A stretch of DNA of 24,304 nt from a virus. Within the stretch, counting starts at the first letter, position 1. Every line of letters begins with the position of its first letter. Where the stretch lies: positions 1 to 24,304 of IMG/VR virus record IMGVR_UViG_3300020438_000268, one strand, 5' to 3'. The notes below the pieces were generated by a model. That model was not told the origin of the DNA and searched no databases. It saw nothing but the letters and a program-made list of their open reading frames with translations. Below, piece after piece: positions 5,456 to 24,304 of this stretch. The translations under genes and the position numbers were made by a program.

Positions 5456-5458
5456 TTT

Positions 5459-7090: not shown

Positions 7091-7109
7091 ATCATCTAGC
7101 TTTTTTCTA

Positions 7110-7117
7110 TATTTATA
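7110..7117 (-). promoter_or_regulatory. T4-type late promoter TATAAATA upstream of gp8
   Basis: The minus strand reads TATAAATA, an exact match to the T4 late promoter recognised by the gp55 sigma factor (established for T4 and found upstream of structural genes in cyanomyoviruses). It lies in the 51-bp gap 7091-7141 between the gp7-like stop and the gp8 start, with the box about 20 bases upstream of the ATG. I see no hairpin terminator in this gap, so read-through from the giant gene is also likely. Confidence 0.72.
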
Positions 7118-7141
7118 CTATTTTTTGAAGTGTACATAATA

Positions 7142-10100: not shown

Positions 10101-13100
10101 CTTAATCCTGCAGTATATCCAGAACCATGCATATCAAGAGTACCTAATCCAACGGATGCAATTGATTTGCCAGTACCAATAATTGCAGTAACCGCAGCAC
10201 CTGCTAATGGTGCAATACCAATTCCACCACTTGAACCAATAGATATTATTTGTCCAGATCTTGGTAATTGATTTTGATTAACGTCAATATCACTAATAAT
10301 TATTGAACCATTATCTGAAGTAATTCCTGTATAAACAATACTAGAAATACCAGCAGTACTCTTATCAAAGAAATAATTAAAATTTGAATTATTTTCAGTA
10401 GTTGGTGGTTGGAAAATACCATTAATAGTCATTAAAGTACTTCCAGTTTGTACTCCAGTTGTATTTGCACCACTAACTTGCATAGTAAAGGTTCTTCCAA
10501 TTCCAGTAAAATTCTCTGAAATATCATCAAATATTTCATTAGTTGAATAATTTTTTCTTAAATATGCTCTTCCACTAAAGTTAGAATTAACGGGAGGTAA
10601 ATTAGACTTATCCAATTCATTTGAATTATTACCATGTGGTGTGCCAGCAAAATAGAGGTTTTGCCCAACAATATTATAAGCACCTTGATATAATCTAACC
10701 TCTGTTCCATCAACATGTATTGTTGCTGTACTTCCAACAAATCCCCTTTCAACTTCAACAAGATTAAATGATCCAGATTCACCTATAGGACCAAGACTTG
10801 TAGTTCCAAGTCCAACATTAACAATCTTAATATACTCATCATCAATCCTTACAATACTATCATTAGAAATTGTACCAATACCTGTAAGACTCAATAAAGT
10901 AGTAGAGATAGATACTTGTCCAGATATGTTATCAAAAAGAGTTGTTTTAATAGGAGTCCATGTTAATGGTGTTTGAATAATGTTATCTAAGACAATTAAA
11001 CTCTTTTCAAGTTTTTTACTCATTTCAAATAGATGATAATTACCAGTTCCTACTGTATTGAAAGTTGTTGCTGCTCCGCCCAAAGAAGTTGAAATAAAGA
11101 ATGAATCCTTATCATTTTCAACAATGTATACAGTTGATGGTAAACCATTACCATCACTCATAACAATAGAAGAGAATCCAACACTATCATATGATGATCC
11201 AGGTGTATAAAGTATTTCTTCATTATTGCTAAAGAAATGAGATGGAATTGTGAATAATCCAGTTGCTAAATTTAAATTAATAACAGGTTCAAAATATTTT
11301 CCAAAAATAGGCACATCTTTATATTTTAAAACAAATTCATCTATATTACCTGAAGTATTGTTTGTTCCTTTATATTCTAATGTTGATACAGATTCAATAG
11401 AAGAACCATATTCTAAATCTGGTGGAATATTAAGACTATCAAGTTTTTTATTAATAACTTCATTATAACTTTGAACCTCAATATTTCCAGAGACTGAAGA
11501 ATCTGGATGGAATATTAAATTTAAATTAGACCCATTAAATTCAGATGAGAAGGTTCCAATTCCAGAAGAACTGCCAATAGATATGAATGGATATTGTAAA
11601 GTAAAGGTATTTTGTGTATTATGTGCAAATAATACCTGATGAATTGCACTAGTTTCCCCTATAGAAACTCTAACAAGACTTTTAACTGCAGTATCTTTTG
11701 CTGTACTAAATCCTGCTACAGTAGAAGCAGATGAAACATTTGCATATTGAGATTCCAATCTTACAGTATTTTCAGATCCAGCTGGTTGAGTACTTTTCTT
11801 AAATCTATAAGTTCCTATTCCAACAGAAGTAGTTCCAAACCCAACAATTCTTGACTGGAGTACTATTTCATTACCACTAGTATTTTCGTAATTTAATAAT
11901 AAATTATTTGATGAATCAATATTTGAAGTAAATGTTCCTATAGCATTTGTTGTATTGCTTTCTAATTGATAATTTGCAATATATGAATTTGTACCATCAT
12001 GTGTAACATATACATCAACAATATTAGTTTCTTGAGACGTATTATCTTGCAATTCAACTGATGCAAAATATGATTCTGTAAAAGATTTTCCAACAGAAAT
12101 TAAAGTAACAGTAGTTCCAACACCAACTGTTTGATTTATTGATGTTAAATCTGTAAATCCAAAAGAAGTAGTACCTACTCCAGAAACACTATTAAAAGTA
12201 TTTTCAAATACTTTAATCTCAAGATCTATATTTTGAGTATCTACTGGTGTAAATAGCAAACTATATTCATCTTTATTATTTTTATTTCCAATAACACTTA
12301 CAAGACTATCATCATCGTCAATAGAAGAATCTGATAAAGCACCTTTTTGTATTGTATAAACATCTTTAGTGAAGTAATCTATATTAACAACTAATTCTTC
12401 AACTTGTATTTTATTATTTTGAGGATTTCTTGTTTGAATCAAATATCTACCATAAGGAGAAGTTATTTGTAACTTACCATCACTAACTGCATTATTAGTA
12501 GTATTAGAGAATAAATTACTAATATTATCAACTTTTAATACCCTATTAGTTTTACATTCAAAATAATCAGACAATATTCTATTTTCAAATCTAATATATC
12601 TCGATCTTTCTGGATTCGAAATAATATCTACATCAGTAACAACATCAAAATTATTGATACTATCTACTCTATTTTCTGATTGTAAATCACGAGTTATTGT
12701 AGTTGCATCAATACTATTAATACCAATTGCTTTTGGGGCAGAAGTAATTCCAGTATCGGCAAAATTCTTTAATCCAGTTGTATGAACTAGACGATTTACA
12801 GAACTAATTAATTCTTTAAATTCTACTGGACTCTGAATAGTATATGATAATGACTGATAATAATCATTATCTGGTAATACTTGATAATCTTCATTTAATT
12901 TACCAATTTCATCAATCCATCCCTTATTTTGTTTGGATGAATAATCTACCTCAAATACACCACTATTATAATGAATTTCATTAATAGTTGCTAAAATACC
13001 ACTTACATATCCTCTAAGTCTATCATTTTTATACAAGTCCCTATTTCCAGATATCTTAATATAATCATTTCCAACTTTATCAATATAAAGATTTAAATCA

Positions 13101-16100
13101 GACCATTCGTTACCATTCCAAACCAATACTTTTTCACCTTCTATGAATAATCCTTGTTTTTGTATAACATCAAATTTAGGATATTTCTTATAATTTACAA
13201 CAGAAGCATAAGTTTGAGTTGTTTTTGCCAATCCAGGATTTGTAGATATTCCACTTAGATTAAATGTTATCTTAAATGGATTTTTAGGTGAACCAATTTT
13301 AGTAACTTCATAGAATCTATATCCAACTGATGCAGAATTAAAAGTATCACCATATTCATTCTCTATTCCTTCTACAAATACTAAATCACCAACTTCAAAT
13401 GGATCTTCACTAAATCCACCTAAAGGAGTTGCTAAAGTACATGTTACAATACCTGAGTAAGTGTCAGTAACAACGGTTCCACCTATTGTCACATTGTTAA
13501 CTCTAATCCCATTAGCATTATCAACAGCGTAAACTTCACTAACATCTAATCCTTTAGTAGGAACAATAATATTAATATCTACAATGGAAGATCCATTTAC
13601 AACTGCCTGTAAAACACCATTATCAATAACTTCTCTACTAATACTATCAACTACAACTAAATTTGGTGGTATTTCATACCCAAATCCACCATCATTAATA
13701 GTTAACTCACCAACAACATCATAATTTCTTAAAGATATAACAGGTGATAATCTTGCTGTTGGTCTTAAAGTTTTATCAGAAGGATATTCAAATCCAACAT
13801 TAGCAATTCTAACACCATCAACTTTATTTGCCAATTCGGATGTTGGTAAAATACTAGCATTAACACCTTCACTAGAAGCAATACTAATAAATTGAGGTAA
13901 TTCTTTATATCCAATACCACCAAAATTAATTCCAACCTCACCAACACCACCTGATGCAGTATCTGAATTTGTATTATATGTTAAAGTTCCTATACCACTA
14001 TTTTCAACATTTATATACTCATAAGAAAGAGATTCTGGATTTCTATTTAAGAATATACTGAACGTAGTTTCACCTACTCCAGAAATAACATATTCTCCAC
14101 TATAAGTGCTATCAGTATAGAAAATTTCAGATCTATTTGTAACATCACTATCAGATGTACTAATATAACCAGCCTTTTCAATATTGTAATATAATTTCTG
14201 AGGATTGTTAATATCATAATTTACTGTTACAGTTGCATCTGCTCCAGAACCAATAACACCATCTCTTGTTATTGTAAAAGTATTAGTCTGTCCTGTAGAT
14301 ACAAATCTATTATTGAAATTACTGTCATAATAAAAATTAATATCATAAGCACCTAAAGACGTGTCTGATACATCAAAAACAAGATTATTATTATTAATGA
14401 TGGGTATTGGTGGGTTAATTAATGATAATTCCTGCGTAGAACCGCCTGTAGACGCTAAACTTACGACACTGGGAGGATTCTTAGTAGAGTCATTAAGAGT
14501 CTCTGTTAATTGAATATTATTATCATCTATTCTATAAACAAAATAACCATCAGTAGTTAATCCACTAACATTATCATTAGAATCATAAAATACTTTATTA
14601 CCCGTCTCAAATCCATGAGAACTTAAAGTAATTACATTAGTTTCAGTATTAATTCCAGTTGAACTAAATCCTAACGTATTAATTAATAAAATATCCTTAA
14701 TTTGATTATATTTAAGTCTAACTGCAGTTGATGTTCCAATACCAACAGATTTATTAGGAGTAATACTCAAATTAATAATATCACCATTTGATAAACCATG
14801 TGATGTTGATACAGAAACTGTAGATAAGGCTTTTATAACTGTTCCAGTTACTTGTGAGAAATTAGATTCTAAAGAATAATCATAATAATTGCTACCATTA
14901 TTCAAGAAATATAAACCATCTGATGAAGTTGTTAATCCAACATGAGTTACAATGCCAATAAAATTACTAGATTTATTAATTGCAAATAATGTATCATTAG
15001 CATCAATATTAAATCCACCACTAATTGTTCCATCTGTAGAAACACCAATAACAGATCCTGATCCTCTCTTAAATGTTAATTGTTGATTTGTTTTAAATGG
15101 ATGATTTGGTAAATATATGCTTTGTGCAGGAATAGAGATTGTATCCGTTACACCACTAACAGTAACATCCACTGCACTAGATATTCCAGAAATAGTTCCA
15201 ACACCTATAGATTGGAATGGATTAAAGTAGATAATATCATCTATCTTTGAATCAAATTTAGGAATATCTAATGGAATTGATAAGAAACTAGGTATCAAAC
15301 TAACTCTAGATGAAATAGTATGTGCTGTACCAGTAACACCTCTTAATACCCTTAATACCTTCTTATCATTAAATTTATTAAGAACAAGTAATTTTTCAGT
15401 TCCAATTCCAATACTACTACCAATAGATATAAAATCAATATTGGATACAACAATATCGGCAACAGTTCCTGCAGTTGCATTTGAAGGAATTTCAGAATAA
15501 ACAAAAGATTTATCAGTAGATACTCCGATTTTGTGCGATCCAGTAAGATATTTTATTGATGTTGATAATCCAGATACAATAATTTGATCATTATTATTTA
15601 ATTCGTGGGAAGTAGAAATATATGCTGATACCCCATTATCATGCCAAGTAAAACTTACATTTTCATACTTTATATAATTTGTATTAATATCTACTATAGT
15701 TTTTCCCTCTAATGACTTAACATAAGCATTTAACCCATTACCCTCTGTTCCATCATTATCAAATATTAAATTATCGTTTACTTTATAAGATTCTCCTGAA
15801 GTAACAATATCAAATCCATCAACAGATCCTGGAGTTACTGATTCAACAATAGATTCTTGATTTGTTAATTCATATGACTCTATAAAGAAATCATTGCCAG
15901 CAAATTCATCTCCAACTTTATATGGGAATGTATTTCTAACCAAATTTGAATTATTAAAATCAAATAAGTCTTGATTTATCGTAAATTTTTCTTCTAAAGT
16001 TACTGGTTCAGATCTATAACTATCACCAATAAAATATGGGAAAGTTGGTTTTAATTTTCCAAAAGAAGTTGATACTCCAACAAAATATGCATATGTTCCA

Positions 16101-19100
16101 TTTGGGTATTCTGGAGTACGACAAAATCTACCATTATGTTCATCTAAATTTCCAATATTAGTATAAACATAATCATCTACAAAGAACCCTGCCTCAAAAT
16201 CACTTTCTAATGGTCTATCAGTTACTTTTGAAGTGTCTAAAACATATCCCGTTTTTAAAATAGTTAAATCAGTTCTTTGATATGCATCACTATAACCTTT
16301 AGGTCCATATATTGGATTTCCATCATATGCCCATCCAATAATTGGAGAATGGGATATACCATTATCATCAAAATGATTTTTTCCAATATCTGTTGAATAA
16401 CCTACAACAGAATATCTTAGTTTATTTAAAGATTCTAATAATATTTCATCACCATAACGTTTTAAATTGTTTATAGGTAATTTTCTAACATTAAAGGCAA
16501 AAACTGCATTTCGTCCAGCAGATTTAACTTTAATAGTAGTGTTATTTTCAGTATAATTTGCCCCACCATTAATTATTATTACATCAGTTAACTGATTATT
16601 TGTAATAACTGGTCTTAATTCTGCACCGACACCATCACCTTCAATTTCTAAATCAGGAACTGAATGATATTCAGTACCTAAAGCACCAACATTAATACTT
16701 ACAATCTTACCATTTAAAACTACTGGAAATACTTCTGCATTTTTTCCAGATTTTAATGATAAAATTGGTTTATTTTCAAAATTTATAATACTAGAACCAT
16801 ATCCAGTACCAGATTCATACATATATGCATTTGATATATTTCCACGAACTACAGGAGTTGATGTTAAAGTTCTTGATGGGAATATAATATTATCTGTAGA
16901 ATCTGATGATATTCCAGAATATTCAACACTAACTGTTAATTTAATATCTGGATATTTGAATAGATGATATCCAGCACCTATAGAACTTAATCCAACATAT
17001 TTTTTTCTATTATAATCAATTGTTATTGTTCCACCAACACCAGCATTAGATAATCTAAAAGAATTGTCATTAAGTTTTAAAACTTTATACTGAATTGATG
17101 ACGATAAATCTGGTATTGCTACAGATGTATTTGAATATACAACATTATCACCATCTAAAAATCCATGATCTTCATAATTAATAGTTGAATTAAATGTACT
17201 AATACCTGTTGGTTTCACATAAAGTTTCTTATTTGCATAAGATTTACCAGATTCAATTATTTTAATTGAATCTAAAGTATTTTTTGCTTTATAAAGTCTT
17301 ATTATATGCTCTCCACCTGGTAATCCAGTATTAAAACCTACAGTATTGATTCCCGATGTATAATCAGAAAAAGATTTATATAATCTAATACTTGTTAATC
17401 CAACTACTTCTGGATAGTAAATTACATTGTCGTCTAAAGTTTCATCAGTTAAAGCATTAGATGTAGTTGTTGTTATTCCTATTGGTTGGTATCCATTGCG
17501 ATTATAAACAACAGCTTGTCCATTCTTTAAATTATGATTACCTTTAAAAACAATTGTTTCATTATTATAATCAATACCATATGTGCTAATACCATTAGTT
17601 GCATTAATACCTGCAAATAGAACTTCTCTATATCTTTTCTTAATAATCGGTTTTAAAATAGCACCTGTACCATTACCACCAGTAAATTTTACAGAAGTTA
17701 TATTCTCAATATCATAATCTTGAGGATCAACAAAAATATTCTTAATATTTCCACTAACAACTGGTTGAACTAATGCCGTTAATCCTATTCCAGCAGCGAT
17801 TTCAATAGAGGGTGGATTAATAACATCATATTCTATTCCAGGATTTAATACATCAAAATCTTCTAAAGGTCCATAAAAGATATTATCAATTGATTTATAA
17901 TTTTCAATTTCAACTCCATTAATCATCATTCCAATAGATCCAGGAGTAGTTTTTACATTATTACCTGTTTTTAAATTTGGATTTATTGGTAACTTTCTTA
18001 ATAATTTTTGATTTCCCAATTCACCATCTAAATGTCGTAATAATGTAAATGTATGAATGGTTTGTGTATCTACTGGTAAACTAAATTCAGTAACATCATT
18101 AGATGCAATGAAAGATGGAGCCAAATATAACTTAATTTGGTTTTTTAATTCTTGTACTTCAACATAATAGGTACCTTCAGATAATCCAAATAGTGAAGTT
18201 GTAGTTGGTTTATAGTAAACTTCATCCCCTGTTATAAAAGGAACATCTGAAGAAAATGATATTATTGAATATTTGTTAGTTACTGTATTATATCCTTGAA
18301 TAGTACTACTATTAAGTTCACTAATAGATGTTTGTGCTATTCCAACTTTAATATCATAAGAAGGTAATGAATTAGAAGCAACATAAATGTTTTCATTTAA
18401 TTCATTATATACATTTTGAATATCACTTATTATATTATTATTTCCATATTGAATAGGAACACCAGAACTTGTAGACTTATTTAAAATTCTTCTTATATCA
18501 TATGATTTAGTTAATACAGGTATAAAACTATTTCCTATACCAATAGAATTATTTGTTTGTAAAGAAGTTACTTTTGTTGAAAGAACAACATTTTGACCTG
18601 TAGAAAAATTACCAACTCTCTCTAAAACTTCAATATTATCACCAACTTTTAAACTAGATCTATCAATTTTAGAAAAAAGAATAAGAGTTGTTCCACCAGT
18701 GTCCTGATTTACAGTAGATATTTGGTATCTTGAAGAAGTATTATATACCCAAGAATTTGCATTAACTTGTTTTTTAGTAGATATAATTCCATCTACATGT
18801 TCAATTTTCTCTCCAAGATTTTTAACATATATTTTTTCACCCTCTACAGATAATTTATTACTATCAGTAGAAACGAAATCTGCTAAAACACCTGTTATTC
18901 TTAATTCAACTTTCTTTGAAGTATCTCCACCTTCATATCCAAAAATAGTTTCATCAGAACGTAGATTATCTGTGCTATGAATATCTTCTCGTATACCTTC
19001 ACAATCTAAAAACTGATTTATAGTTTTTCCCGAATATGTAATAGATGTATTAAGACCAGAATGAATTAGTGTGCCTGTAGTACTAAATCCAATAGTGGAA

Positions 19101-20131
19101 TCTACTGCAATTACAGAAGATCCCGCAGGTGTAAGTCCAATAACTTTTGTTTTACCTGGAATTGTAAATGTTCCAGTAATTGCCTCCTCATCATCATATC
19201 CAACAAATATATCCAGACTAAAATATTCTGAAGTTGTTGAACCAGAACCTAAAGTGTTAAGAATACCACCACTAACCTTTTCAACTTCAGATACAGATGC
19301 AGTAGAAGTAGAATCATCAGACTTTACTACCGTTTGACCTTCTAACTTTATAGGGTTACCCGATAATTGTTCAGCAACAATAATTTCACGTCTAAGATAC
19401 CTTGCAGAAGATGGTTTTATCAAATATTCTTCAAGATCAATAATTTTAGGATTTACGCCATATAAAACATTAAAAAGTATTCTAAACGATTCTTCAGTAC
19501 CCTTTGACTCATAAAAACTTCTTGCTTCCTTTAAAAAGTTACCAACATTTAAATTTGGAACAAAATCAACATTTTCTAATCCTGGAGTTAATGTATATTT
19601 AAGTTTTTTGTAAAATTGCTTTAAAAATAAGGTACTTAAATTAGTTATTATTGCATTTTCAGCATGTGATTGTGAAGCAGAATCACTGAATATTAATTCA
19701 CCAGTATTATTACTTGAATAATATGATGTAATACCACTAAATCCACGTTCACATTCAAGGAAACTATCTGTAGTTATTCCTTTGTAGGTTATAACCTCAT
19801 CACCTATTTTTAATAATCCATACTTATCAGGAAAACCTTTTGTACTGTTAACACTTATTGTTGTATCATTAGTACTAATTCCTACCTTAAGAATAGTTGA
19901 ATCAACAACCACTTCAGGTGTTAAATTATCTAATTTTAAATATTGATCTAAATTATCACTTATATCAACAGGACCACCAGTATATTCTTGTGAAATATAA
20001 TATTGCTTTAGAAATTCAGAAAATTTATTAACTCCATCAGATGTAACACCCTCAGATAATAAAAATTCTGGAATTTGATTTTCAACAATTTGTTGAATTT
20101 GTACTTTCTTATTAATTCCAGTAGTTATCAT
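7142..20131 (-). CDS. 7: Giant gp7-like baseplate wedge protein with repeat modules and YHYH domain
   Basis: 4329 aa in one uninterrupted frame; T4 gp7 has about 1032. It sits between gp6 and gp8, where T4 has gene 7. Residues 206-225 (19457-19516) carry FYESKGTEESFRILFNVLY, matching the FYSTKGIEASYKFLFKVLY block near the C-terminus of T4 gp7, so the gp7-homologous part is at the N-terminus here. The remaining roughly 4000 residues are modular and beta-rich: HGF..GD.V.Y units, GG.GY units, DEYI...ERGF units, NG..Q.P units, three FTC..DN...NH.YPR units (9116-9880) and a YHYH domain (about residues 1249-1376). I see no signal peptide or membrane segment. The ATG at 20131 follows the gp6 stop by one base and has a good Shine-Dalgarno, AAGAGG. 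The wedge role is supported by position and signature; the function of the extension is unknown, possibly a wedge-anchored appendage or surface-binding structure. Confidence 0.85.
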   Translation of the reverse strand: MITTGINKKVQIQQIVENQIPEFLLSEGVTSDGVNKFSEFLKQYYISQEYTGGPVDISDNLDQYLKLDNLTPEVVVDSTILKVGISTNDTTISVNSTKGFPDKYGLLKIGDEVITYKGITTDSFLECERGFSGITSYYSSNNTGELIFSDSASQSHAENAIITNLSTLFLKQFYKKLKYTLTPGLENVDFVPNLNVGNFLKEARSFYESKGTEESFRILFNVLYGVNPKIIDLEEYLIKPSSARYLRREIIVAEQLSGNPIKLEGQTVVKSDDSTSTASVSEVEKVSGGILNTLGSGSTTSEYFSLDIFVGYDDEEAITGTFTIPGKTKVIGLTPAGSSVIAVDSTIGFSTTGTLIHSGLNTSITYSGKTINQFLDCEGIREDIHSTDNLRSDETIFGYEGGDTSKKVELRITGVLADFVSTDSNKLSVEGEKIYVKNLGEKIEHVDGIISTKKQVNANSWVYNTSSRYQISTVNQDTGGTTLILFSKIDRSSLKVGDNIEVLERVGNFSTGQNVVLSTKVTSLQTNNSIGIGNSFIPVLTKSYDIRRILNKSTSSGVPIQYGNNNIISDIQNVYNELNENIYVASNSLPSYDIKVGIAQTSISELNSSTIQGYNTVTNKYSIISFSSDVPFITGDEVYYKPTTTSLFGLSEGTYYVEVQELKNQIKLYLAPSFIASNDVTEFSLPVDTQTIHTFTLLRHLDGELGNQKLLRKLPINPNLKTGNNVKTTPGSIGMMINGVEIENYKSIDNIFYGPLEDFDVLNPGIEYDVINPPSIEIAAGIGLTALVQPVVSGNIKNIFVDPQDYDIENITSVKFTGGNGTGAILKPIIKKRYREVLFAGINATNGISTYGIDYNNETIVFKGNHNLKNGQAVVYNRNGYQPIGITTTTSNALTDETLDDNVIYYPEVVGLTSIRLYKSFSDYTSGINTVGFNTGLPGGEHIIRLYKAKNTLDSIKIIESGKSYANKKLYVKPTGISTFNSTINYEDHGFLDGDNVVYSNTSVAIPDLSSSIQYKVLKLNDNSFRLSNAGVGGTITIDYNRKKYVGLSSIGAGYHLFKYPDIKLTVSVEYSGISSDSTDNIIFPSRTLTSTPVVRGNISNAYMYESGTGYGSSIINFENKPILSLKSGKNAEVFPVVLNGKIVSINVGALGTEYHSVPDLEIEGDGVGAELRPVITNNQLTDVIIINGGANYTENNTTIKVKSAGRNAVFAFNVRKLPINNLKRYGDEILLESLNKLRYSVVGYSTDIGKNHFDDNGISHSPIIGWAYDGNPIYGPKGYSDAYQRTDLTILKTGYVLDTSKVTDRPLESDFEAGFFVDDYVYTNIGNLDEHNGRFCRTPEYPNGTYAYFVGVSTSFGKLKPTFPYFIGDSYRSEPVTLEEKFTINQDLFDFNNSNLVRNTFPYKVGDEFAGNDFFIESYELTNQESIVESVTPGSVDGFDIVTSGESYKVNDNLIFDNDGTEGNGLNAYVKSLEGKTIVDINTNYIKYENVSFTWHDNGVSAYISTSHELNNNDQIIVSGLSTSIKYLTGSHKIGVSTDKSFVYSEIPSNATAGTVADIVVSNIDFISIGSSIGIGTEKLLVLNKFNDKKVLRVLRGVTGTAHTISSRVSLIPSFLSIPLDIPKFDSKIDDIIYFNPFQSIGVGTISGISSAVDVTVSGVTDTISIPAQSIYLPNHPFKTNQQLTFKRGSGSVIGVSTDGTISGGFNIDANDTLFAINKSSNFIGIVTHVGLTTSSDGLYFLNNGSNYYDYSLESNFSQVTGTVIKALSTVSVSTSHGLSNGDIINLSITPNKSVGIGTSTAVRLKYNQIKDILLINTLGFSSTGINTETNVITLSSHGFETGNKVFYDSNDNVSGLTTDGYFVYRIDDNNIQLTETLNDSTKNPPSVVSLASTGGSTQELSLINPPIPIINNNNLVFDVSDTSLGAYDINFYYDSNFNNRFVSTGQTNTFTITRDGVIGSGADATVTVNYDINNPQKLYYNIEKAGYISTSDSDVTNRSEIFYTDSTYSGEYVISGVGETTFSIFLNRNPESLSYEYINVENSGIGTLTYNTNSDTASGGVGEVGINFGGIGYKELPQFISIASSEGVNASILPTSELANKVDGVRIANVGFEYPSDKTLRPTARLSPVISLRNYDVVGELTINDGGFGYEIPPNLVVVDSISREVIDNGVLQAVVNGSSIVDINIIVPTKGLDVSEVYAVDNANGIRVNNVTIGGTVVTDTYSGIVTCTLATPLGGFSEDPFEVGDLVFVEGIENEYGDTFNSASVGYRFYEVTKIGSPKNPFKITFNLSGISTNPGLAKTTQTYASVVNYKKYPKFDVIQKQGLFIEGEKVLVWNGNEWSDLNLYIDKVGNDYIKISGNRDLYKNDRLRGYVSGILATINEIHYNSGVFEVDYSSKQNKGWIDEIGKLNEDYQVLPDNDYYQSLSYTIQSPVEFKELISSVNRLVHTTGLKNFADTGITSAPKAIGINSIDATTITRDLQSENRVDSINNFDVVTDVDIISNPERSRYIRFENRILSDYFECKTNRVLKVDNISNLFSNTTNNAVSDGKLQITSPYGRYLIQTRNPQNNKIQVEELVVNIDYFTKDVYTIQKGALSDSSIDDDDSLVSVIGNKNNKDEYSLLFTPVDTQNIDLEIKVFENTFNSVSGVGTTSFGFTDLTSINQTVGVGTTVTLISVGKSFTESYFASVELQDNTSQETNIVDVYVTHDGTNSYIANYQLESNTTNAIGTFTSNIDSSNNLLLNYENTSGNEIVLQSRIVGFGTTSVGIGTYRFKKSTQPAGSENTVRLESQYANVSSASTVAGFSTAKDTAVKSLVRVSIGETSAIHQVLFAHNTQNTFTLQYPFISIGSSSGIGTFSSEFNGSNLNLIFHPDSSVSGNIEVQSYNEVINKKLDSLNIPPDLEYGSSIESVSTLEYKGTNNTSGNIDEFVLKYKDVPIFGKYFEPVINLNLATGLFTIPSHFFSNNEEILYTPGSSYDSVGFSSIVMSDGNGLPSTVYIVENDKDSFFISTSLGGAATTFNTVGTGNYHLFEMSKKLEKSLIVLDNIIQTPLTWTPIKTTLFDNISGQVSISTTLLSLTGIGTISNDSIVRIDDEYIKIVNVGLGTTSLGPIGESGSFNLVEVERGFVGSTATIHVDGTEVRLYQGAYNIVGQNLYFAGTPHGNNSNELDKSNLPPVNSNFSGRAYLRKNYSTNEIFDDISENFTGIGRTFTMQVSGANTTGVQTGSTLMTINGIFQPPTTENNSNFNYFFDKSTAGISSIVYTGITSDNGSIIISDIDVNQNQLPRSGQIISIGSSGGIGIAPLAGAAVTAIIGTGKSIASVGLGTLDMHGSGYTAGLSTDGSGIIRIGIVDESYEHRFVSADDASITPNVGSSLTPTNATYESSTGTLILTIPSHGLTTANTVGIATNSIVFTCSKDNFTTNHNYPRTTDPAHDISISIGATTVDTISVNVGPGGGAGAGASITAQVIDFNEHRFVNSGVGSITIGGGGALTATTGTEYNPLVGILTITTTGAHGLVASGFQTATNAKYNPHSGIMTLTTVNNHNFVTGDYVKLAKNSLTFTCDKDNYTSNHYYPRVGDPIYNKWVAIGNTTLQMFEIQVLDTIPSTNVTTHNFVSAAASGIQKANNTVGIITGGLNFTCAQDNHVSNHYYPRVSKVTGGSDPAYNAVLGVEEVLSTTKFTINVGKSPHGTGGALSFNVVEGGSGYVNPIVQCPTPFYQNMPIEGISRRGIGQTTDTGNALLIDVEVGASQTTGIGSVAHAVQSYKISRTGYAFEEGDVFRPTGLVTSRYYSSLVTDFKLTVNEIFTDKFACWNVGDFDYIDSVKPLQNGIRRRFPLYYNTELVSFQTDPSDKDSQEIDLDSCLLIFVNGVVQVPGESYNFGGGTSILFTEAPDPEDNLSIFFYKGTNGEDSVYVDVPETIKSGDNVQIIKNDVKNITGSESITQDERVIVGITTSDTIETNLYYGLGIDVDKPANPIKWTKQKTDKIIGGEVVYKSRASIEPLIFPNAGIISDFSITDTTFFVDSTDLFNYEGDTPLSINAFVIDPVDPVAASLTAVVSAAGTVSSISVVDGGLGYVGATTSVSIGLPPSGLSGVGVDPIALGTANITDGSISSVDVTNPGRGYSESNPPQVLAPLPSFKFEEVRGISGLGGFSGIITGISTTTGTGSNPLALKFFVERVAGEVVATLKTGHPIVIFNTNVGSGVTSIYDDGAVVGIGTTFLDNIYRVNSVTNPGSGNRCEFIANVDPGSPVTGINTYDSAGKLGSFSWGTITGITTRSSANPIAIGVSGLTVDSGLSTFPYIQRRNAGIRDTGALESKDTA
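9116..9880 (-). repeat. Three FTC-xxDN-NHxYPR-DPA repeats in the gp7-like giant
   Basis: Three copies of a 23-29-residue motif occur in frame. They are FTCSKDNFTTNHNYPRTTDP (9812-9880), FTCDKDNYTSNHYYPRVGDP (9365-9433) and FTCAQDNHVSNHYYPR, which has a 6-residue insertion before its DPAYN (9116-9202). Copies are 149 and 77 residues apart. Each is preceded by a V(G/K)-x-N-S/G-L-x-F strand and followed by a beta-rich stretch. The invariant Cys, Asp-Asn, Asn-His and Tyr-Pro-Arg suggest a small folded or ligand-binding unit. Similarity is also visible at DNA level (shared GGATAATnATGATT on the plus strand), which fits duplication within the gene. Confidence 0.85.
16005..16385 (-). other. YHYH-type domain inside the gp7-like giant
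   Basis: Residues about 1249-1376 of the giant contain SHSPIIGWAYDGNPIYGPKG, then LDEHNGRFCRTPEYPNGTYAY and FPYFIGDSY. This order (H-S-P-I-x-G-W-A-x-D-G-x-P-I-Y-G, then L-D-x-x-N-G-R, then T-P-E-Y-P-x-G-T-Y-x-Y, then F-P-Y) is the pattern of the YHYH domain, a domain of unknown function found in many secreted or surface proteins. The usual Tyr-His-Tyr-His core reads Tyr-Ala-Tyr-Phe here, so the namesake histidines are replaced while the frame around them is kept. The domain assignment is from pattern recognition only. Confidence 0.72.
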
Positions 20132-20132
20132 A

Positions 20133-22034
20133 TTATCCTCTTGTTAATACTCCATTTGTATAGCTTGACGTAACTTTAAATCCTACGCCTGATATTTGTT
20201 GACCCGATGTAATAGTGTCATTTACCATATTTATTGAACTATCAGAGATGCTAAATTGCAAATATAAATCTTGAAGACCTATAACATCATTTGACTCTGG
20301 GAATGCCTGAATTTCTATGATATTATTTGGTTTTTCAGTTGAAGTTATATTTACTGTAGTAAGTGTAATTTCACCTTTGATGTAATCTACTGTTCCTGCT
20401 GATTGAACAATGGTTATGATGGATTCATTAACAGGATCTTTCTTTACAATAGATACTTTACCTTTTAATTTGTCAGCATTTGGGGTATCAGTCAAATATA
20501 CAGTATCATTACTTCCAGATATTGTGAATCCAGTACTCTTAATATTAAGTCCATCTGGTTTAACATTAAATTGATTTCCAAAGCAAAGTTCATATTGAGC
20601 AAACTGATTAATCAATGCATTCAAGTTTCTCCTAATCCTTACTCTTGTTATATTTGAAGTTATAGCAGTATCAATACCATCAATAACACTTAACACCTTA
20701 CTATACTTAAATCTTCCACCAAATTTGTTAATATCGATAGATTTTGAGTAAATTGATAGTCCATTAACAACATCGGTATTCAAATTATTAACATTATTGA
20801 CTTGAGATTTATTATAATAGATATAAGACTCTAGTTCGATGTAAAGTACCTTCAAATCAATGATTTTTTGGTTAATTCCAGTCAAAGAATAGTCTTTTAA
20901 GTTGGAAAGTATCTGCTGTTTATCAAAATCTGAGACAAATTCACCATTTTTTGGTTTTATTGTTATAAAAACTGTACCAAATTGTGGTGGATCAAGTTCT
21001 TCACCCCCAACAACCGAAACACTCTCCGTATTTGGGTAAATTTGTTGAACAATTGTCTCATAATCTCTTGATGTTACTGCTCTATACTGTGAAGAATAGA
21101 GTCTAGGAGCAAAATATTTAATAGAATCTAAAGTTTCTATCTCACCACCGTTACTTGCACTAGTAATAGTGTTTATTTCAATAGTATTTGTTGGAGAAAT
21201 GACTATTCCTTCAGGAGAAGACTCTAAACTACCCGAAAATATGAAATTTGCAGCACCATTTCCTTCTTCACCATCAGTAACTATGTAAGTAACAGTAATT
21301 ATTGTGCCATTTTCTAGTTTTTTACCAAAAATACCATCACCAAACAGCAATTCATACCTTTCATCTTGTACTTCTTGTATCAAATATGTCTCAGAAGTAG
21401 AATCTATGTTTAAAATATTGTCAATTTTACTATATTGTCTTCCTTTTCCAGCATCACTTATCCCTTTTACATAAACATTAATAGTAGAAGTGTCAATATA
21501 TGAGTTATTTAATATAAATCTTTGATCTAATGAACCATCAACAGTAAATGTCTTTGTTAAATACGTTCCTTGATATAGAGTTATCGGACTAGTAGAACTT
21601 CCAAAGGTTGCATTTCCCCCAACAATAGGAGTTTGAATATCTTCTGGAGTTGAAAATACATATGTAGTGTCTTCTTTTACTCCAGTACACACTAGACCTG
21701 CCTTTAAAACTGCTGCAGCACTATCAGAAGTGGTATTAGCAGTAAATGTAACATTTGCTTTTGCAGCAGTCCTAGAGCGTGGTACGTAACCAATAGATCT
21801 TGCTAATGAAACTACGTTTTCTCTTACAGTTGCTGAATCTAAGAAAGATTCATTCACAATCATATTTGAATTAAACGCAGTAATATAGGTATTATATGCT
21901 AGGGTATCAATTAAAACGGAAAAATTAGAACCTTCAAAATCAAAATCCGTGAATGTGGAATTTGCACGAAGATAATCTTTAATCGACGTTTTTATTTGAT
22001 CGTAATCTAAATTAGCGAATTTTGTAAAGGGCAT
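20133..22034 (-). CDS. 6: Baseplate wedge subunit gp6
   Basis: 633 aa, close to the 660 aa of T4 gp6, the protein that forms the continuous inner ring of the baseplate wedges and contacts gp25, gp53 and gp7. The N-terminal 90 residues (MPFTKFANLDYDQIKTSIKD, then NFSVLIDTLAYNTYITAFN, then a VSLARSIGYVPRS block) are highly characteristic of T4-like cyanophage gp6. Residues about 308-410 form the baseplate-J-like part, with RAVTSRDYETIVQQIYPNTE followed by a hydrophobic strand typical of the gpJ/gp6 superfamily. The ATG lies one base after the gp25 stop, in the context TAA-T-ATG; the same arrangement recurs at the junction with the next gene, so translation coupling is likely. No anomalies seen. 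Confidence 0.96.
   Translation of the reverse strand: MPFTKFANLDYDQIKTSIKDYLRANSTFTDFDFEGSNFSVLIDTLAYNTYITAFNSNMIVNESFLDSATVRENVVSLARSIGYVPRSRTAAKANVTFTANTTSDSAAAVLKAGLVCTGVKEDTTYVFSTPEDIQTPIVGGNATFGSSTSPITLYQGTYLTKTFTVDGSLDQRFILNNSYIDTSTINVYVKGISDAGKGRQYSKIDNILNIDSTSETYLIQEVQDERYELLFGDGIFGKKLENGTIITVTYIVTDGEEGNGAANFIFSGSLESSPEGIVISPTNTIEINTITSASNGGEIETLDSIKYFAPRLYSSQYRAVTSRDYETIVQQIYPNTESVSVVGGEELDPPQFGTVFITIKPKNGEFVSDFDKQQILSNLKDYSLTGINQKIIDLKVLYIELESYIYYNKSQVNNVNNLNTDVVNGLSIYSKSIDINKFGGRFKYSKVLSVIDGIDTAITSNITRVRIRRNLNALINQFAQYELCFGNQFNVKPDGLNIKSTGFTISGSNDTVYLTDTPNADKLKGKVSIVKKDPVNESIITIVQSAGTVDYIKGEITLTTVNITSTEKPNNIIEIQAFPESNDVIGLQDLYLQFSISDSSINMVNDTITSGQQISGVGFKVTSSYTNGVLTRG
20137..20142 (-). 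promoter_or_regulatory. Shine-Dalgarno AAGAGG for the gp7-like gene
   Basis: The minus strand reads AAGAGG inside the last codons of gp6 (Thr-Arg-Gly-stop), with 5 bases between it and the ATG at 20131. It is the clearest ribosome binding site in the structural cluster and supports this start. Confidence 0.6.
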
Positions 22035-22035
22035 A

Positions 22036-22434
22036 TTATCTTGTGGCTTCTAGCATAAACGTAAATGATTGTGTAGGAAACTGTTGCCCTATGATGTCAA
22101 AATATACATTAACTTCAAATTCATTATCATCAGGTCTTGGAAATACTTCAACTTGTAAGTTTTCAACTCTAGGTTCAAAGTTAGTAACAGTTGTTTCAAT
22201 TTGTCTTTGAATTGTTGAAGCAGTACCAAAATCCACAAAATCAAAAAGACTAGCATTAACATCAGATCCTAGAATAGAATTAAAAAATCTTTCTCCAGGA
22301 ATTGTTTGAACTAGGTTTCTTACAGACTTTTTAACTGCATTTGCATCTTTAAGAACTGTAAGGTCTTTCGTAACGGGGTGAGCATTAAAGGACAGACTAA
22401 TATCTTTAAATGATCTAGATATCCTTGTCTTCAT
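22036..22434 (-). CDS. 25: Baseplate wedge subunit gp25
   Basis: 132 aa, matching the size of T4 gp25 and of the GPW/gp25 family, which also includes TssE of type VI secretion. The family core is visible: TIPGERFFNSILGSDVNASL at residues 44-63, then FEPRVENLQVEV with the conserved Glu-Pro-Arg at 87-89. In T4, gp25 sits with gp6 and gp53 in the wedge core and helps trigger sheath assembly; its EPR motif is structurally important. It is the first gene of the late structural operon here: a perfect TATAAATA lies 26 bases upstream of the ATG and an intrinsic terminator just before that isolates it from the upstream small genes. Upstream of the ATG is GATAAA with no strong Shine-Dalgarno. Confidence 0.96.
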   Translation of the reverse strand: MKTRISRSFKDISLSFNAHPVTKDLTVLKDANAVKKSVRNLVQTIPGERFFNSILGSDVNASLFDFVDFGTASTIQRQIETTVTNFEPRVENLQVEVFPRPDDNEFEVNVYFDIIGQQFPTQSFTFMLEATR

Positions 22435-22460
22435 TTTATCGTAAACAGTTTTCTATATTT

Positions 22461-22468
22461 TATTTATA
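22461..22468 (-). promoter_or_regulatory. T4-type late promoter TATAAATA upstream of gp25
   Basis: The minus strand reads TATAAATA, an exact late-promoter consensus, 26 bases before the gp25 ATG and 15 bases after the T-tract of the upstream terminator. The 84-bp intergenic space 22435-22518 contains only this promoter, the terminator and the short leader. The predicted leader is about 15-20 nt. Confidence 0.8.
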
Positions 22469-22483
22469 CCAATTTTTAAGAAT

Positions 22484-22514
22484 TAATAAAAAAACGCCCC
22501 CGAAGGAGCGTTTT
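22484..22514 (-). terminator. Intrinsic terminator with UUCG tetraloop
   Basis: On the minus strand AAAACGCTCC pairs with GGGGCGTTTT (10 bp, one T-G wobble) around a TTCG loop closed by C-G, one of the most stable tetraloops. A run of seven Ts follows at the 3' side. It lies 4 bases beyond the stop codon of the 48-aa gene. Read from the plus strand, the hairpin is followed by only four Ts, so its main direction is minus. Confidence 0.9.
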
Positions 22515-22518
22515 CAAT

Positions 22519-22665
22519 CTATTTTCCCTGTCCTCTATACTTTTTACGAGACGAGTTACGGGAGGTGGAAGTGTATTTTGTATGTTTTCCGTTTCCTTGT
22601 CGAGTCTTTTTCGGAGTCGATTCAAGTTCAACATTACCCCATGCACCAGTTTTAGATTTTGCCAT
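22519..22665 (-). CDS. 48-aa very basic conserved phage peptide
   Basis: 48 aa: it begins MAKSKTGAWGNVELESTPKK and ends with a Lys/Arg/Ser/Thr-rich tail finishing KKYRGQGK. The composition is strongly basic, with no predicted membrane segment and only one aromatic cluster (Trp9). I recall similar small Lys-rich peptides starting MAK.K.GAWG in T4-like cyanophages, where they are hypothetical proteins. The ATG lies 3 bases after the stop of the 99-aa gene and the stop lies directly before the terminator, so it is the last gene of that transcription unit. Its charge suggests nucleic-acid or ribosome binding, but nothing in the sequence proves this. Confidence 0.8.
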   Translation of the reverse strand: MAKSKTGAWGNVELESTPKKTRQGNGKHTKYTSTSRNSSRKKYRGQGK

Positions 22666-22668
22666 AAT

Positions 22669-22968
22669 TTACCAAGGTTTTCCGTTTAATGTTTTCTTTG
22701 CTAATTTATCTGTAAAATAAGTTTCTATGTTATTACATATTGTTGTTCCAAGTCCTGCCTGTGCCCATCCAATCACAGTTGCCTCATTGAGACTATCATA
22801 TGCCACTAATGTATCAGGACGATCTAAACCTACCTTTGTATTTGTTGATGCTGTATTAGAGGCATCAGCATTATCAACTGCACTAATGTTTACAAAGAGT
22901 TCATAAACATATCCATCAGCAGATTCTCTATGCATATTTGTGATTGTCCAAGTTGTTGTATGAGCCAT
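22669..22968 (-). CDS. Conserved hypothetical phage protein, 99 aa
   Basis: 99 aa: MAHTTTWTITNMHRESADGY at the start, with alternating hydrophobic residues suggesting beta strands (YVYELFVNISAVDN). A middle segment TLVAYDSLNEATVIGWAQ is followed by a helical C-terminus ending KKTLNGKPW. The layout (N-terminal beta hairpin with T-W-x-I, then D-S-L-x-x-x-x-V-I-G-W, then a C-terminal P-W) resembles a family of roughly 100-residue hypothetical proteins common in marine phages (possibly DUF7936); that link is from memory. The start codon overlaps the upstream stop by one base (TAATG), indicating coupled translation. Function unknown. Confidence 0.82.
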   Translation of the reverse strand: MAHTTTWTITNMHRESADGYVYELFVNISAVDNADASNTASTNTKVGLDRPDTLVAYDSLNEATVIGWAQAGLGTTICNNIETYFTDKLAKKTLNGKPW

Positions 22969-23132
22969 TAGTTTTCGTCCTTCTGTATTTGTGTGATAAT
23001 TTCTTGAGGATTTGGTATACCAGTCTGATAAAATTCTATTGACAGATCTTCCATTCTTTCAAAGTATTCTATTTCACCTAAGTCTGAAAATAAAACTTTA
23101 TCTTTATAGACTATAGTATATCTAGGTTTCAT
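22968..23132 (-). CDS. Small conserved hypothetical protein, 54 aa
   Basis: 54 aa: MKPRYTIVYKDKVLFSDLGE followed by an acidic stretch with IEYFERMEDLSIEFYQTG and a C-terminus IITQIQKDEN. The N-terminal third looks like a beta hairpin, the rest an amphipathic acidic helix. The gene sits between the glycosyltransferase (6-base gap) and the 99-aa gene (1-base stop/start overlap), which supports it as a real gene despite its size. No Shine-Dalgarno is obvious. The sequence type is familiar from cyanophage small ORFs, but I know no function. Confidence 0.78.
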   Translation of the reverse strand: MKPRYTIVYKDKVLFSDLGEIEYFERMEDLSIEFYQTGIPNPQEIITQIQKDEN

Positions 23133-23138
23133 TGAAAC

Positions 23139-23900
23139 TTAAATAACCCTTGTTTTCTCATGCCCAACCCTTACACGAGGATCGCACCAGATTTCAAAAC
23201 CTGCTTCGATTGCATCAAGACAGAAAGAAACGTCCTCACCGCACATATCTTGCACTTCCCCTGATTCGAAAACTTGCATCTTGGGTGCGAACCATGGATA
23301 CTTCATTTCATCATGCTCGAAGACTCCATTTTTAATAAGAAGCCAACCGAAACCTGTATAATCTACTGTGAATGGTTTTTTACGCTTGGATATACTTTCG
23401 ACAGTTTCGTGATTCATCACTCCACCGTTGTTACGAAAATCATCCTCTTCTAACCAATGTGCTACAGAAGTAGTCTTACCATCTTCGGTAGCATACCAAC
23501 CACCAGCGATATCCTTTTCCATTAATACTAATTGCCAAAACTTTTCAGTATTAAAAACAATGTCAGAGTCAATCCATAATTGCCAATCATATTTGAGTTT
23601 TCCATCCCATGGTAACTGATCTGGACCTCTGAGAACATTTGCACCAAGACACTTACATCTTGCAAAGTTCACCATGGAACTATAATCTTGTGAAATTTGT
23701 ATACTTGCACCTGCTTGTACTAAATCAAAACATAATTGTACAAATGCTTTTAAGTAGGTGTAAGAAACACCTCTACCTGGTAAACAAAATACAATTGCTT
23801 TTCCTTTTACAATCTCCTTTGCTTTATCATAATCCCATTCAGGGGTTTTTGTTTTCGCAGGAGTAGGGGTTTTTGCTTTTACTGTAAATCCTTTAGACAT
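23139..23900 (-). CDS. GT-A type glycosyltransferase-like protein
   Basis: 253 aa. After a Lys/Thr/Pro-rich N-terminal tail (residues 4-20), the protein shows the GT-A plan. A first beta strand (KGKAIVFCLPGRGVSYTYLK, residues 32-51) precedes helices, then WQLWIDSDIVF at 106-116 carries the D-x-D metal/nucleotide-sugar motif (Asp111-Ser-Asp113). TGFGWLLIK (182-190) follows, and then GEDVSFCLDAIEAGFEIWCD (221-240), in which the Glu-Asp pair is the likely catalytic/acceptor region. A late His247 could be a metal ligand. Such proteins are common in cyanomyoviruses. The acceptor cannot be read from sequence: host lipopolysaccharide, virion protein or DNA modification are all possible. The gene has its own sigma-70-like promoter immediately upstream and heads the unit that ends at the 22484-22514 terminator. 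Confidence 0.88.
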   Translation of the reverse strand: MSKGFTVKAKTPTPAKTKTPEWDYDKAKEIVKGKAIVFCLPGRGVSYTYLKAFVQLCFDLVQAGASIQISQDYSSMVNFARCKCLGANVLRGPDQLPWDGKLKYDWQLWIDSDIVFNTEKFWQLVLMEKDIAGGWYATEDGKTTSVAHWLEEDDFRNNGGVMNHETVESISKRKKPFTVDYTGFGWLLIKNGVFEHDEMKYPWFAPKMQVFESGEVQDMCGEDVSFCLDAIEAGFEIWCDPRVRVGHEKTRVI

Positions 23901-23921
23901 AACCTAATTACTTGTATTCAT

Positions 23922-23950
23922 ATCATACTCTATTATCTATACTTTGTCAA
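23922..23950 (-). promoter_or_regulatory. Sigma-70-type promoter for the glycosyltransferase unit
   Basis: The minus strand carries TTGACA (23945-23950), a 17-base spacer and TATGAT (23922-23927): a perfect -35 box, optimal spacing and a -10 box with one mismatch. The predicted start is about 7 bases further on, near 23914, leaving a leader of about 14 bases before the ATG at 23900. The -35 box overlaps the TGA stop of the upstream 55-aa gene. This is the host-polymerase type of promoter used for early phage genes. Confidence 0.8.
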
Positions 23951-24114
23951 TATGATGCATCGACCATCTCAGGTTCGTTTAACTTTTCATATGTTAAATC
24001 TTCTGTAAAATACGACTTGTATATCCGTCTCCATATTATATTAAACTCCCACTCAGTTAAATCTTTAAACAAACAGTTGTTCTGTAAGTATATGTGATAA
24101 GTTGGATTAGTCAT
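23947..24114 (-). CDS. Small conserved hypothetical protein, 55 aa
   Basis: 55 aa starting MTNPTYHIYLQNNCLFKDLT, then EWEFNIIWRRIYKSYFTEDL and a C-terminus ending MVDASY. The pattern (short N-terminal strand, C-L-F-K-x-L-T-x-x-E-F, aromatic helix) resembles small hypothetical proteins of T4-like cyanophages. An upstream in-frame ATG at 24138 would add eight residues (MRLFSRRK). I prefer 24114 because the family I recall begins near here and because it gives a typical 8-base overlap with the stop of the AbrB-like gene. Its stop codon lies inside the -35 box of the next promoter. Function unknown. Confidence 0.75.
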   Translation of the reverse strand: MTNPTYHIYLQNNCLFKDLTEWEFNIIWRRIYKSYFTEDLTYEKLNEPEMVDASY

Positions 24115-24280
24115 CTTTCTCCGTGAGAATAATCTCACCTTTATCTATGCTCCACTTTAACACAAGATCTTCATACCAGTCAAGTTCATTGATTACTTCT
24201 TCAGGTATTGTCACATGATATCTGTCAGTTACTGGATCGATCTCTATGCTGCTAAAAATATCATCGAAATTTTTTTTCAT
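24107..24280 (-). CDS. AbrB/MazE-like swapped-hairpin protein, 57 aa
   Basis: 57 aa. Residues about 20-55 (RYHVTIPEEVINELDWYEDL, then a beta strand, then DKGEIILTEKDD) follow the AbrB/SpoVT/MazE pattern: a beta strand, T-I-P-x-E-(V/I), a short helix ending in Leu/Trp, a Gly-Asp-like turn (here Tyr-Glu-Asp), then two strands ending G-x-I-I-L. In bacteria such domains dimerise into swapped-hairpin beta barrels that bind DNA (AbrB transition regulators, MazE antitoxins). No toxin-like partner is apparent: the next gene is the 55-aa unknown, overlapping by 8 bases. The frame is open to the window edge, so a longer N-terminus is possible, but the ATG at 24280 gives a compact complete domain. Role inferred: transcriptional regulator or antitoxin-like protein. 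Confidence 0.75.
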   Translation of the reverse strand: MKKNFDDIFSSIEIDPVTDRYHVTIPEEVINELDWYEDLVLKWSIDKGEIILTEKDD

Positions 24281-24304
24281 ATTATATGAACCCTGTGGTC
24301 GTTT
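24281..24304 (-). other. Possible 3' end of an upstream gene at the window edge
   Basis: These 24 bases hold two candidate minus-strand gene ends: TTGFI followed by TAA at 24284-24282, giving the TAA-T-ATG junction seen twice elsewhere here, or NDHRVHII followed by TGA at 24279-24277, giving an ATGA overlap. Too little sequence is present to choose or to name the gene. Confidence 0.3.

Follow-up and report, generated by a model that had tools for sequence, protein, structure and literature searches.

A predicted terminator followed by a late promoter motif ahead of gp25 in a marine T4-like cyanophage

Introduction

Bacteriophage T4 expresses alt as a late gene, whereas the preceding genes, from gene 30 to alt.1, belong to the pre-late class. 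The consensus of the T4 late promoters lies at positions −13 to −6 (PMC1524935), and promoters of this type are described as having no conserved −35 element (PMC2988020). In a comparison of T4-like genomes, a terminator was reported upstream of alt in five of six genomes, and one between genes 35 and 36 in all six (Nolan et al. 2006, PMC1524935). According to a review, g55 is present in the cyanophages sequenced at the time, cyanomyoviruses possess g33 and g45, and sigma-70-like motifs accompany early genes in S-PM2 and Syn9 but were not found in S-RSM4 (PMC2984593). The genes of P-HM2 form early, middle, and late clusters, and 95% of those shared with P-SSM2 are reported to belong to the same time cluster (PMC5082946).

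The locus presented here, from the virus record IMGVR_UViG_3300020438_000268, has a terminator-like hairpin and a T4-type late promoter motif in close succession upstream of the baseplate gene gp25. The favoured reading, to which a probability of roughly 0.85 is given, is that of a fixed boundary in a T4-like cyanophage, where host-type transcription ends and gp55-type late transcription starts.

Results

Gene order of the window

The window, which is the whole stretch of DNA that was analysed, is a 24.3-kb fragment (24,304 nt) whose long genes are encoded by the minus strand. Its region 22000–24304 matches 96 phage records. As these bear the names Synechococcus, Prochlorococcus, marine phage, or cyanophage, the window is attributed to a T4-like cyanophage. 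Along the minus strand, the order is a sigma-70-like promoter, phrog_1574, phrog_3252, phrog_7802, phrog_516, the hairpin, TATAAATA, gp25, gp6, an open reading frame (ORF) of 4329 residues, a second TATAAATA, and a gp8-like gene.

The upstream unit begins with the glycosyltransferase-like gene phrog_1574 (23139–23900, minus strand; PHROG E 2e-122). Its match to a glycosyltransferase family is weak (E 1e-4), and a Pfam search with an E cut-off of 0.01 returned none. Three minus-strand genes without assigned function follow: phrog_3252 (54 residues, 22968–23132), phrog_7802/DUF7936 (99 residues, 22669–22968), and phrog_516 (48 residues, 22519–22665; E 4e-22), which closes the unit. The structural unit opens with the baseplate wedge gene gp25 (22036–22434, minus strand, ATG at 22434; phrog_261, E 9e-53; PF04965 GPW_gp25), followed by the baseplate wedge gene gp6 (20133–22034, minus strand; phrog_219, E 2e-197; PF21379). 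The single ORF of 4329 residues after gp6 (7142–20131, minus strand) stands where gp7 is found in P-SSM2, in which it measures about 15.6 kb.

A hairpin with a UUCG loop directly 3′ of phrog_516

The minus strand has a hairpin and T run directly 3′ of phrog_516 (22488–22514). The stem (22514–22505 with 22500–22491) consists of 10 pairs, one of which is U-G, and an outer G-U pair at 22515/22490 could bring it to 11. The loop UUCG (22504–22501) is closed by a C-G pair, and the T run comprises seven uninterrupted T (22494–22488). A gap of 19 nt separates the T run from TATAAATA, and 56 nt lie between the end of the hairpin and the start of gp25. The folding energy is −15.2 kcal/mol versus −5.6 ± 2.2 kcal/mol for dinucleotide shuffles (z −4.37), with none of 200 shuffles equalling it. 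The site thus combines a short-loop hairpin containing G+C with a U-rich run directly behind the stem, and bears all the marks of a predicted intrinsic terminator. The claim of an earlier note on this DNA, namely a 10-bp minus-strand hairpin with a UUCG loop and a T-tract, is upheld by the z-score and by the length of the T run.

A scan of positions 5000–24304 yielded seven terminator-like sites where 5.1 are expected by chance, so that being listed in the scan is by itself no proof of a terminator. The UUCG hairpin ranks first among the seven in both the number of pairs and the number of G-C pairs. In an Rfam search of positions 20000–24304, the sole sub-threshold match was RsmY at 22491–22621 (minus strand), across part of phrog_516 and the terminator; it scores 26.7 bits where the cut-off is 57, is probably due to chance, and was rejected.

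The boundary could be leaky, much of the early transcript reading through the hairpin. In that case gp25 would also be expressed as a delayed-early gene from long transcripts that begin upstream, and the late promoter would only add to this. There is precedent in T4, where middle RNA stems in part from extended early transcripts (PMC2988021) and where a weak terminator ends about 30% of transcripts (PMC2988022). The strength of the present hairpin and its unbroken run of seven T speak against such leakage, as does the fact that the delayed-early extension in T4 is discussed for Rho-dependent sites (PMC2988021). This possibility is regarded as unlikely, though it deserves to be kept in mind.

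The late promoter motif ahead of gp25

The exact T4-type late promoter motif TATAAATA occupies positions 22468–22461 of the minus strand, leaving a leader of 26 nt before the ATG of the structural gene gp25. Assuming the same spacing as in T4 (−13 to −6), the 5′ end of the late gp25 transcript is predicted near 22455. A second TATAAATA (7110–7117, minus strand) precedes the gp8-like baseplate gene, which starts at 7090; in the scan of positions 5000–24304, no terminator-like site neighbours this second copy. The motif is depleted in the window (2 copies versus 7.46 expected), and both copies are located just upstream of baseplate genes. The core ATAAATA occurs five times on the minus strand of the window and never on the plus strand. 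The other three occurrences (20234, 5656, and 5560) lie within genes and lack the leading T. Upstream of 22468, ATAAATA is absent from both strands of the window.

A stretch resembling AGAAAACT is observed just behind the late motif in many gp25 leaders (46 of 60 distinct ones, with a loose pattern), its place in the window being 22460–22435. In some lineages a short hairpin surrounds this stretch; the window has no such hairpin. A conserved RNA structure of the gp25 leader was considered as a general feature and discarded, since folding at p < 0.1 relative to composition shuffles is limited to 22 of these 60 leaders and the leader of the window has no predicted structure.

The terminator hairpin might instead act on RNA, either by shielding the upstream mRNA at its 3′ end or by preventing the translation of gp25 from long transcripts, as known for gene e of T4, the late promoter of which lies within the region encoding the 5′ strand of the translation-blocking structure (PMC3014915). 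In the window, the hairpin ends well short of the gp25 start and has behind it a T run, as is typical of intrinsic terminators, and the gp25 leader has no predicted structure. Termination and protection of the 3′ end can go together, the latter perhaps as a by-product of the former. A role at the RNA level is judged very improbable.

A conserved sigma-70-like promoter upstream of phrog_1574

The upstream small-gene unit is preceded by TTGACA-17-TATGAT (23922–23950, minus strand), which matches the sigma-70 consensus at 11 of 12 positions and is the only 11/12 match listed for positions 5000–24304. It has the TTGACA- and TATAAT-like hexamers 16–18 nt apart that characterize early promoters of cyanomyoviruses. 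As a class, promoter-like sites are not in excess in this region (131 versus 122 expected), and the case for the promoter at 23950–23922 therefore rests on conservation.

This conservation was assessed in 51 distinct upstream regions (the window, IMG/VR loci, and named phages, leaving out duplicates and regions shorter than 60 nt), taking one match per locus and the nearest ATG as the start. A match at 10–12 of the 12 positions, beginning 50–53 nt before the start codon of phrog_1574, is present in 48 of the 51 regions, including the window. Taken alone, the match surpasses composition shuffles (p < 0.05) in 41 regions and falls short in the other 10. The three loci without a match at 50–53 nt are L061, L091, and L089, the last having a similar site visible further downstream. 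Sites resembling the phrog_1574 promoter are mostly on the coding strand in eight cyanophage genomes, with coding to non-coding counts such as 29:2, 25:0, and 22:0, and 15:5 in Syn33.

These data support the view that the unit from phrog_1574 to phrog_516 is driven by a host-type polymerase, as judged from its promoter. The same promoter type is what suggests an early class for the unit, which could also be middle. The earlier note had claimed a sigma-70-driven unit of small genes set apart from the structural operon. The separation agrees with the conserved promoter and with the lack of ATAAATA upstream of 22468.

Relatives with phrog_1574 (for example L003, L006, L007, and L074) often have the palindrome GTAATTAC behind the sigma-70 promoter, close to where the transcript is expected to begin. 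It was considered as a genome-wide operator and abandoned: in nine genomes it stands behind just one promoter-like site, in P-SSM2, which is possibly the phrog_1574 locus itself.

Conservation among IMG/VR relatives

Relatives were taken as the best 80 of at least 596 confirmed IMG/VR loci encoding gp25, a choice that biases the sample towards close relatives. In a 45-nt search, 79 of these best 80 loci, representing 66 distinct leaders, showed ATAAATA 24–41 nt ahead of gp25, and 46 of the 79 showed the full TATAAATA. In the single locus without it (L004), the sequence available before gp25 is only 29 nt long. Among random 45-nt segments of the same loci, 1.1–1.5% contain ATAAATA (55/3750 upstream, 43/4000 downstream). 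The perfect late promoter that the earlier note had placed right after the terminator is thus upheld as a sequence motif, both by its exact match and by its persistence in relatives.

Of the best 80 loci, 64 contain phrog_516, which makes 65 with the window. In the cases with no more than 130 nt between this gene and gp25 (nine loci and the window), a terminator is called behind it in 10 of 10 cases, versus 18 of 2400 random 70-nt segments, and ATAAATA occurs within 60 nt past the terminator stem in all 10. The terminators behind phrog_516 differ in their stems and have UUCG, GAAA, GCAA, AAAA, or other loops; it is therefore the place that is kept and not the letters. The distance to gp25 exceeds 130 nt in 55 of the 65 loci (window included), which makes the compact form a minority arrangement. 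Among these 55 wide-spaced loci, a terminator is called after phrog_516 in 11 and not in 44. Nine of the 11 terminators have ATAAATA within the next 60 nt, and ATAAATA precedes gp25 in all 11 loci. The 21 terminator calls after phrog_516 (window included) comprise one, in L021, that appears spurious by eye and was counted nonetheless, as well as an identical terminator stretch in L025, L027, and L028. As the relatives share descent, the counts are not independent.

An AT-rich genome may produce hairpins and copies of TATAAATA by accident, and the terminator-like sites of the window are indeed not in excess. Such a coincidence is hardly credible here, given the z-score of the hairpin, the retention of the place of the late motif in 79 of the best 80 loci and of the terminator in 10 of 10, and the scarcity of TATAAATA in the rest of the window.

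Two further observations were made in these loci. Tandem late motifs, 26–30 nt apart, precede gp25 in L007, L008, L014, L018, L025, and others. In L049, one ORF between phrog_516 and gp25 resembles S-adenosylmethionine decarboxylase by eye.

Named cyanophages

Among the 15 named cyanophage regions in which gp25 was located, only seven have ATAAATA within 60 nt before this gene. The strict scan called a terminator after phrog_516 in none of 17 named cyanophage regions. In Syn9, Syn33, S-ShM2, and ACG-2014g, two genes precede phrog_516: a baseplate gene and then another, which has a PAAR annotation in all but Syn9. From the end of phrog_516 to gp25, the distance is 31 nt in Syn33, 36 nt in ACG-2014g, 169 nt in S-ShM2, and 376 nt in Syn9. 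From these results, the compact joint of terminator and late promoter in the window is taken to be typical of some of its lineage and not of the whole. In S-TIM5 (L093), inspection by eye showed GGCGCC and an extended run of T at the stop codon of phrog_516 (about 2605–2625), a possible terminator that the scan missed.

Because it follows a baseplate gene in Syn9, Syn33, S-ShM2, and ACG-2014g, phrog_516 may be a late gene in these phages. By extension, there may be no early/late contrast in the window at all: the upstream unit would be late or constantly transcribed, and the hairpin would merely set transcript ends and levels. The T4 joints 8/9 and 35/36, which lie between two structural genes, would be compatible with such a role. 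It fits poorly with the conserved sigma-70-like promoter in the lineage of the window and with the absence of ATAAATA upstream of 22468, and it is considered less probable than a leaky boundary.

Joints across eight cyanophage genomes

Eight cyanophage genomes and T4 were scanned in pieces, S-SRM01 being covered to base 240000 of 240842. In the eight cyanophages, 87–97% of the ATAAATA copies are on one strand (for example 90:7 in S-SRM01, 51:6 in S-SKS1, and 61:5 in P-SSM2), versus 52–58% for the pool of the 20 other words that these letters can form. Among all 21 words, the strand bias of ATAAATA ranks first in seven of the eight genomes and second in ACG-2014f. Of 204 cyanophage terminators, 26 have ATAAATA within the next 60 nt, compared with a mean of 5.0 for 20 permuted words. 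The maximum among these, 17 for TAAATAA, is due in part to its overlap with ATAAATAA.

With gene starts from simple ORF calling, a terminator was found just upstream of 22 of 188 genes with ATAAATA before their start and of 58 of 1594 genes without it (odds ratio 3.5, p 1.1e-5). As genes without an upstream gap cannot hold a terminator, the test was repeated with a minimal gap. The difference persisted with gaps of at least 50 nt (17/62 versus 55/536, p 6e-4) and of at least 80 nt (13/38 versus 37/395, p 9e-5). It was weaker when shorter ORFs were called without a gap limit (20/183 versus 57/1009, p 0.013). For single genomes, enrichment of the joint reached p < 0.05 in three of the eight only, namely S-SRM01, S-SKS1, and Syn33, and none of the 25 terminators of P-SSM2 forms a joint with the late motif. 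Counts of TTTTTTTATAAATA and of the reversed letters over the whole collection mix all viruses and were not used as evidence.

Discussion

From the elements observed, their positions, and their conservation, we infer how the site may work, from the timing and the efficiency of termination to the involvement of gp55, gp33, and gp45 and the resulting insulation. The host RNA polymerase would start at the sigma-70-type promoter near 23.94 kb, transcribe four genes, of which phrog_516 is the last, and stop near 22.49 kb, at the UUCG hairpin. At a later stage, a polymerase directed by gp55, the sigma factor of the phage, and assisted by gp33 and the gp45 clamp would start at TATAAATA, near 22455, and produce a transcript covering gp25, gp6, and further baseplate genes. 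The terminator would prevent upstream transcription from reaching the late promoter and the baseplate genes, and the late promoter would provide a separate start for gp25.

The earlier note had called this site a switch. The word is too strong, because a temporal change would come from the sigma factor and not from the site. Moreover, a non-systematic look met no hint that the hairpin is regulated, so that the site reads as a boundary.

It is conceivable that the joint of terminator and late promoter is a selected, portable insulator at a hotspot of gene content, an idea that is put forward tentatively and that we hold to be rather doubtful. If so, the joint would stay behind phrog_516 and drive whichever gene comes next, and gp25 would keep a late promoter of its own. 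Newcomer genes would become late, and both neighbours would be left undisturbed. The proposal draws on the 9 of 11 wide-spaced loci in which the terminator is followed by ATAAATA, on the persistence of ATAAATA before gp25 in all 11, and on the enrichment of joints over the eight cyanophages taken jointly; the 44 of 55 wide-spaced loci without a terminator call after phrog_516 count against it.

Returning to the fixed boundary, it supplies a clean map of where upstream transcription is expected to end and late transcription to start in a T4-like marine phage. For the annotation of uncultured T4-like phages, the comparisons suggest that a hairpin and T run with ATAAATA close behind often mark the start of a late unit. 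The gain is modest, because the parts and their arrangement are known from T4.

Other cyanophages provide one point of comparison. The late promoters NATAAATA of S-PM2 and Syn9, as given in the review (PMC2984593), share with the window both the motif and the place before late genes. There is no essential difference, the window having the full T4 form TATAAATA. No claim is made that such a joint is new to the cyanophage literature.

The gp25 baseplate gene has its ortholog in T4 gene 25, the surroundings of which differ. T4 gene 25 lies between gene 26 and uvsY, and no TATAAATA is found in the 120 nt that precede it. It is reported to have a split ribosome-binding site with RNA structure (PMC3014915), unlike the leader of the window. 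The different gene order and the missing late motif rule it out as a direct precedent.

Closer parallels are found elsewhere in T4 (NC_000866.4), where 3 of 32 terminators form such a joint, ahead of the downstream genes at 8/9, alt.1/alt, and 35/36. At alt.1/alt (about 125.5 kb), as in the window, a small gene is followed by a CUUCGG hairpin, a T-rich tail, and TATAAATA, and then by alt. The genes are different, and the T-rich tail of T4 runs into the promoter, whereas a gap separates the two in the window. At 8/9 and 35/36, a hairpin terminator is likewise followed a few bases on by TATAAATA and then by a structural gene. Unlike in the window, both flanking genes are structural, so that two structural units are parted. 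Together with the reported conservation of the terminators at 35/36 and upstream of alt (PMC1524935), the three joints of T4 mark the arrangement as an old T4-type habit. The window, with parts and an arrangement already known from T4, is an ordinary T4-type boundary that is shared by some close relatives.
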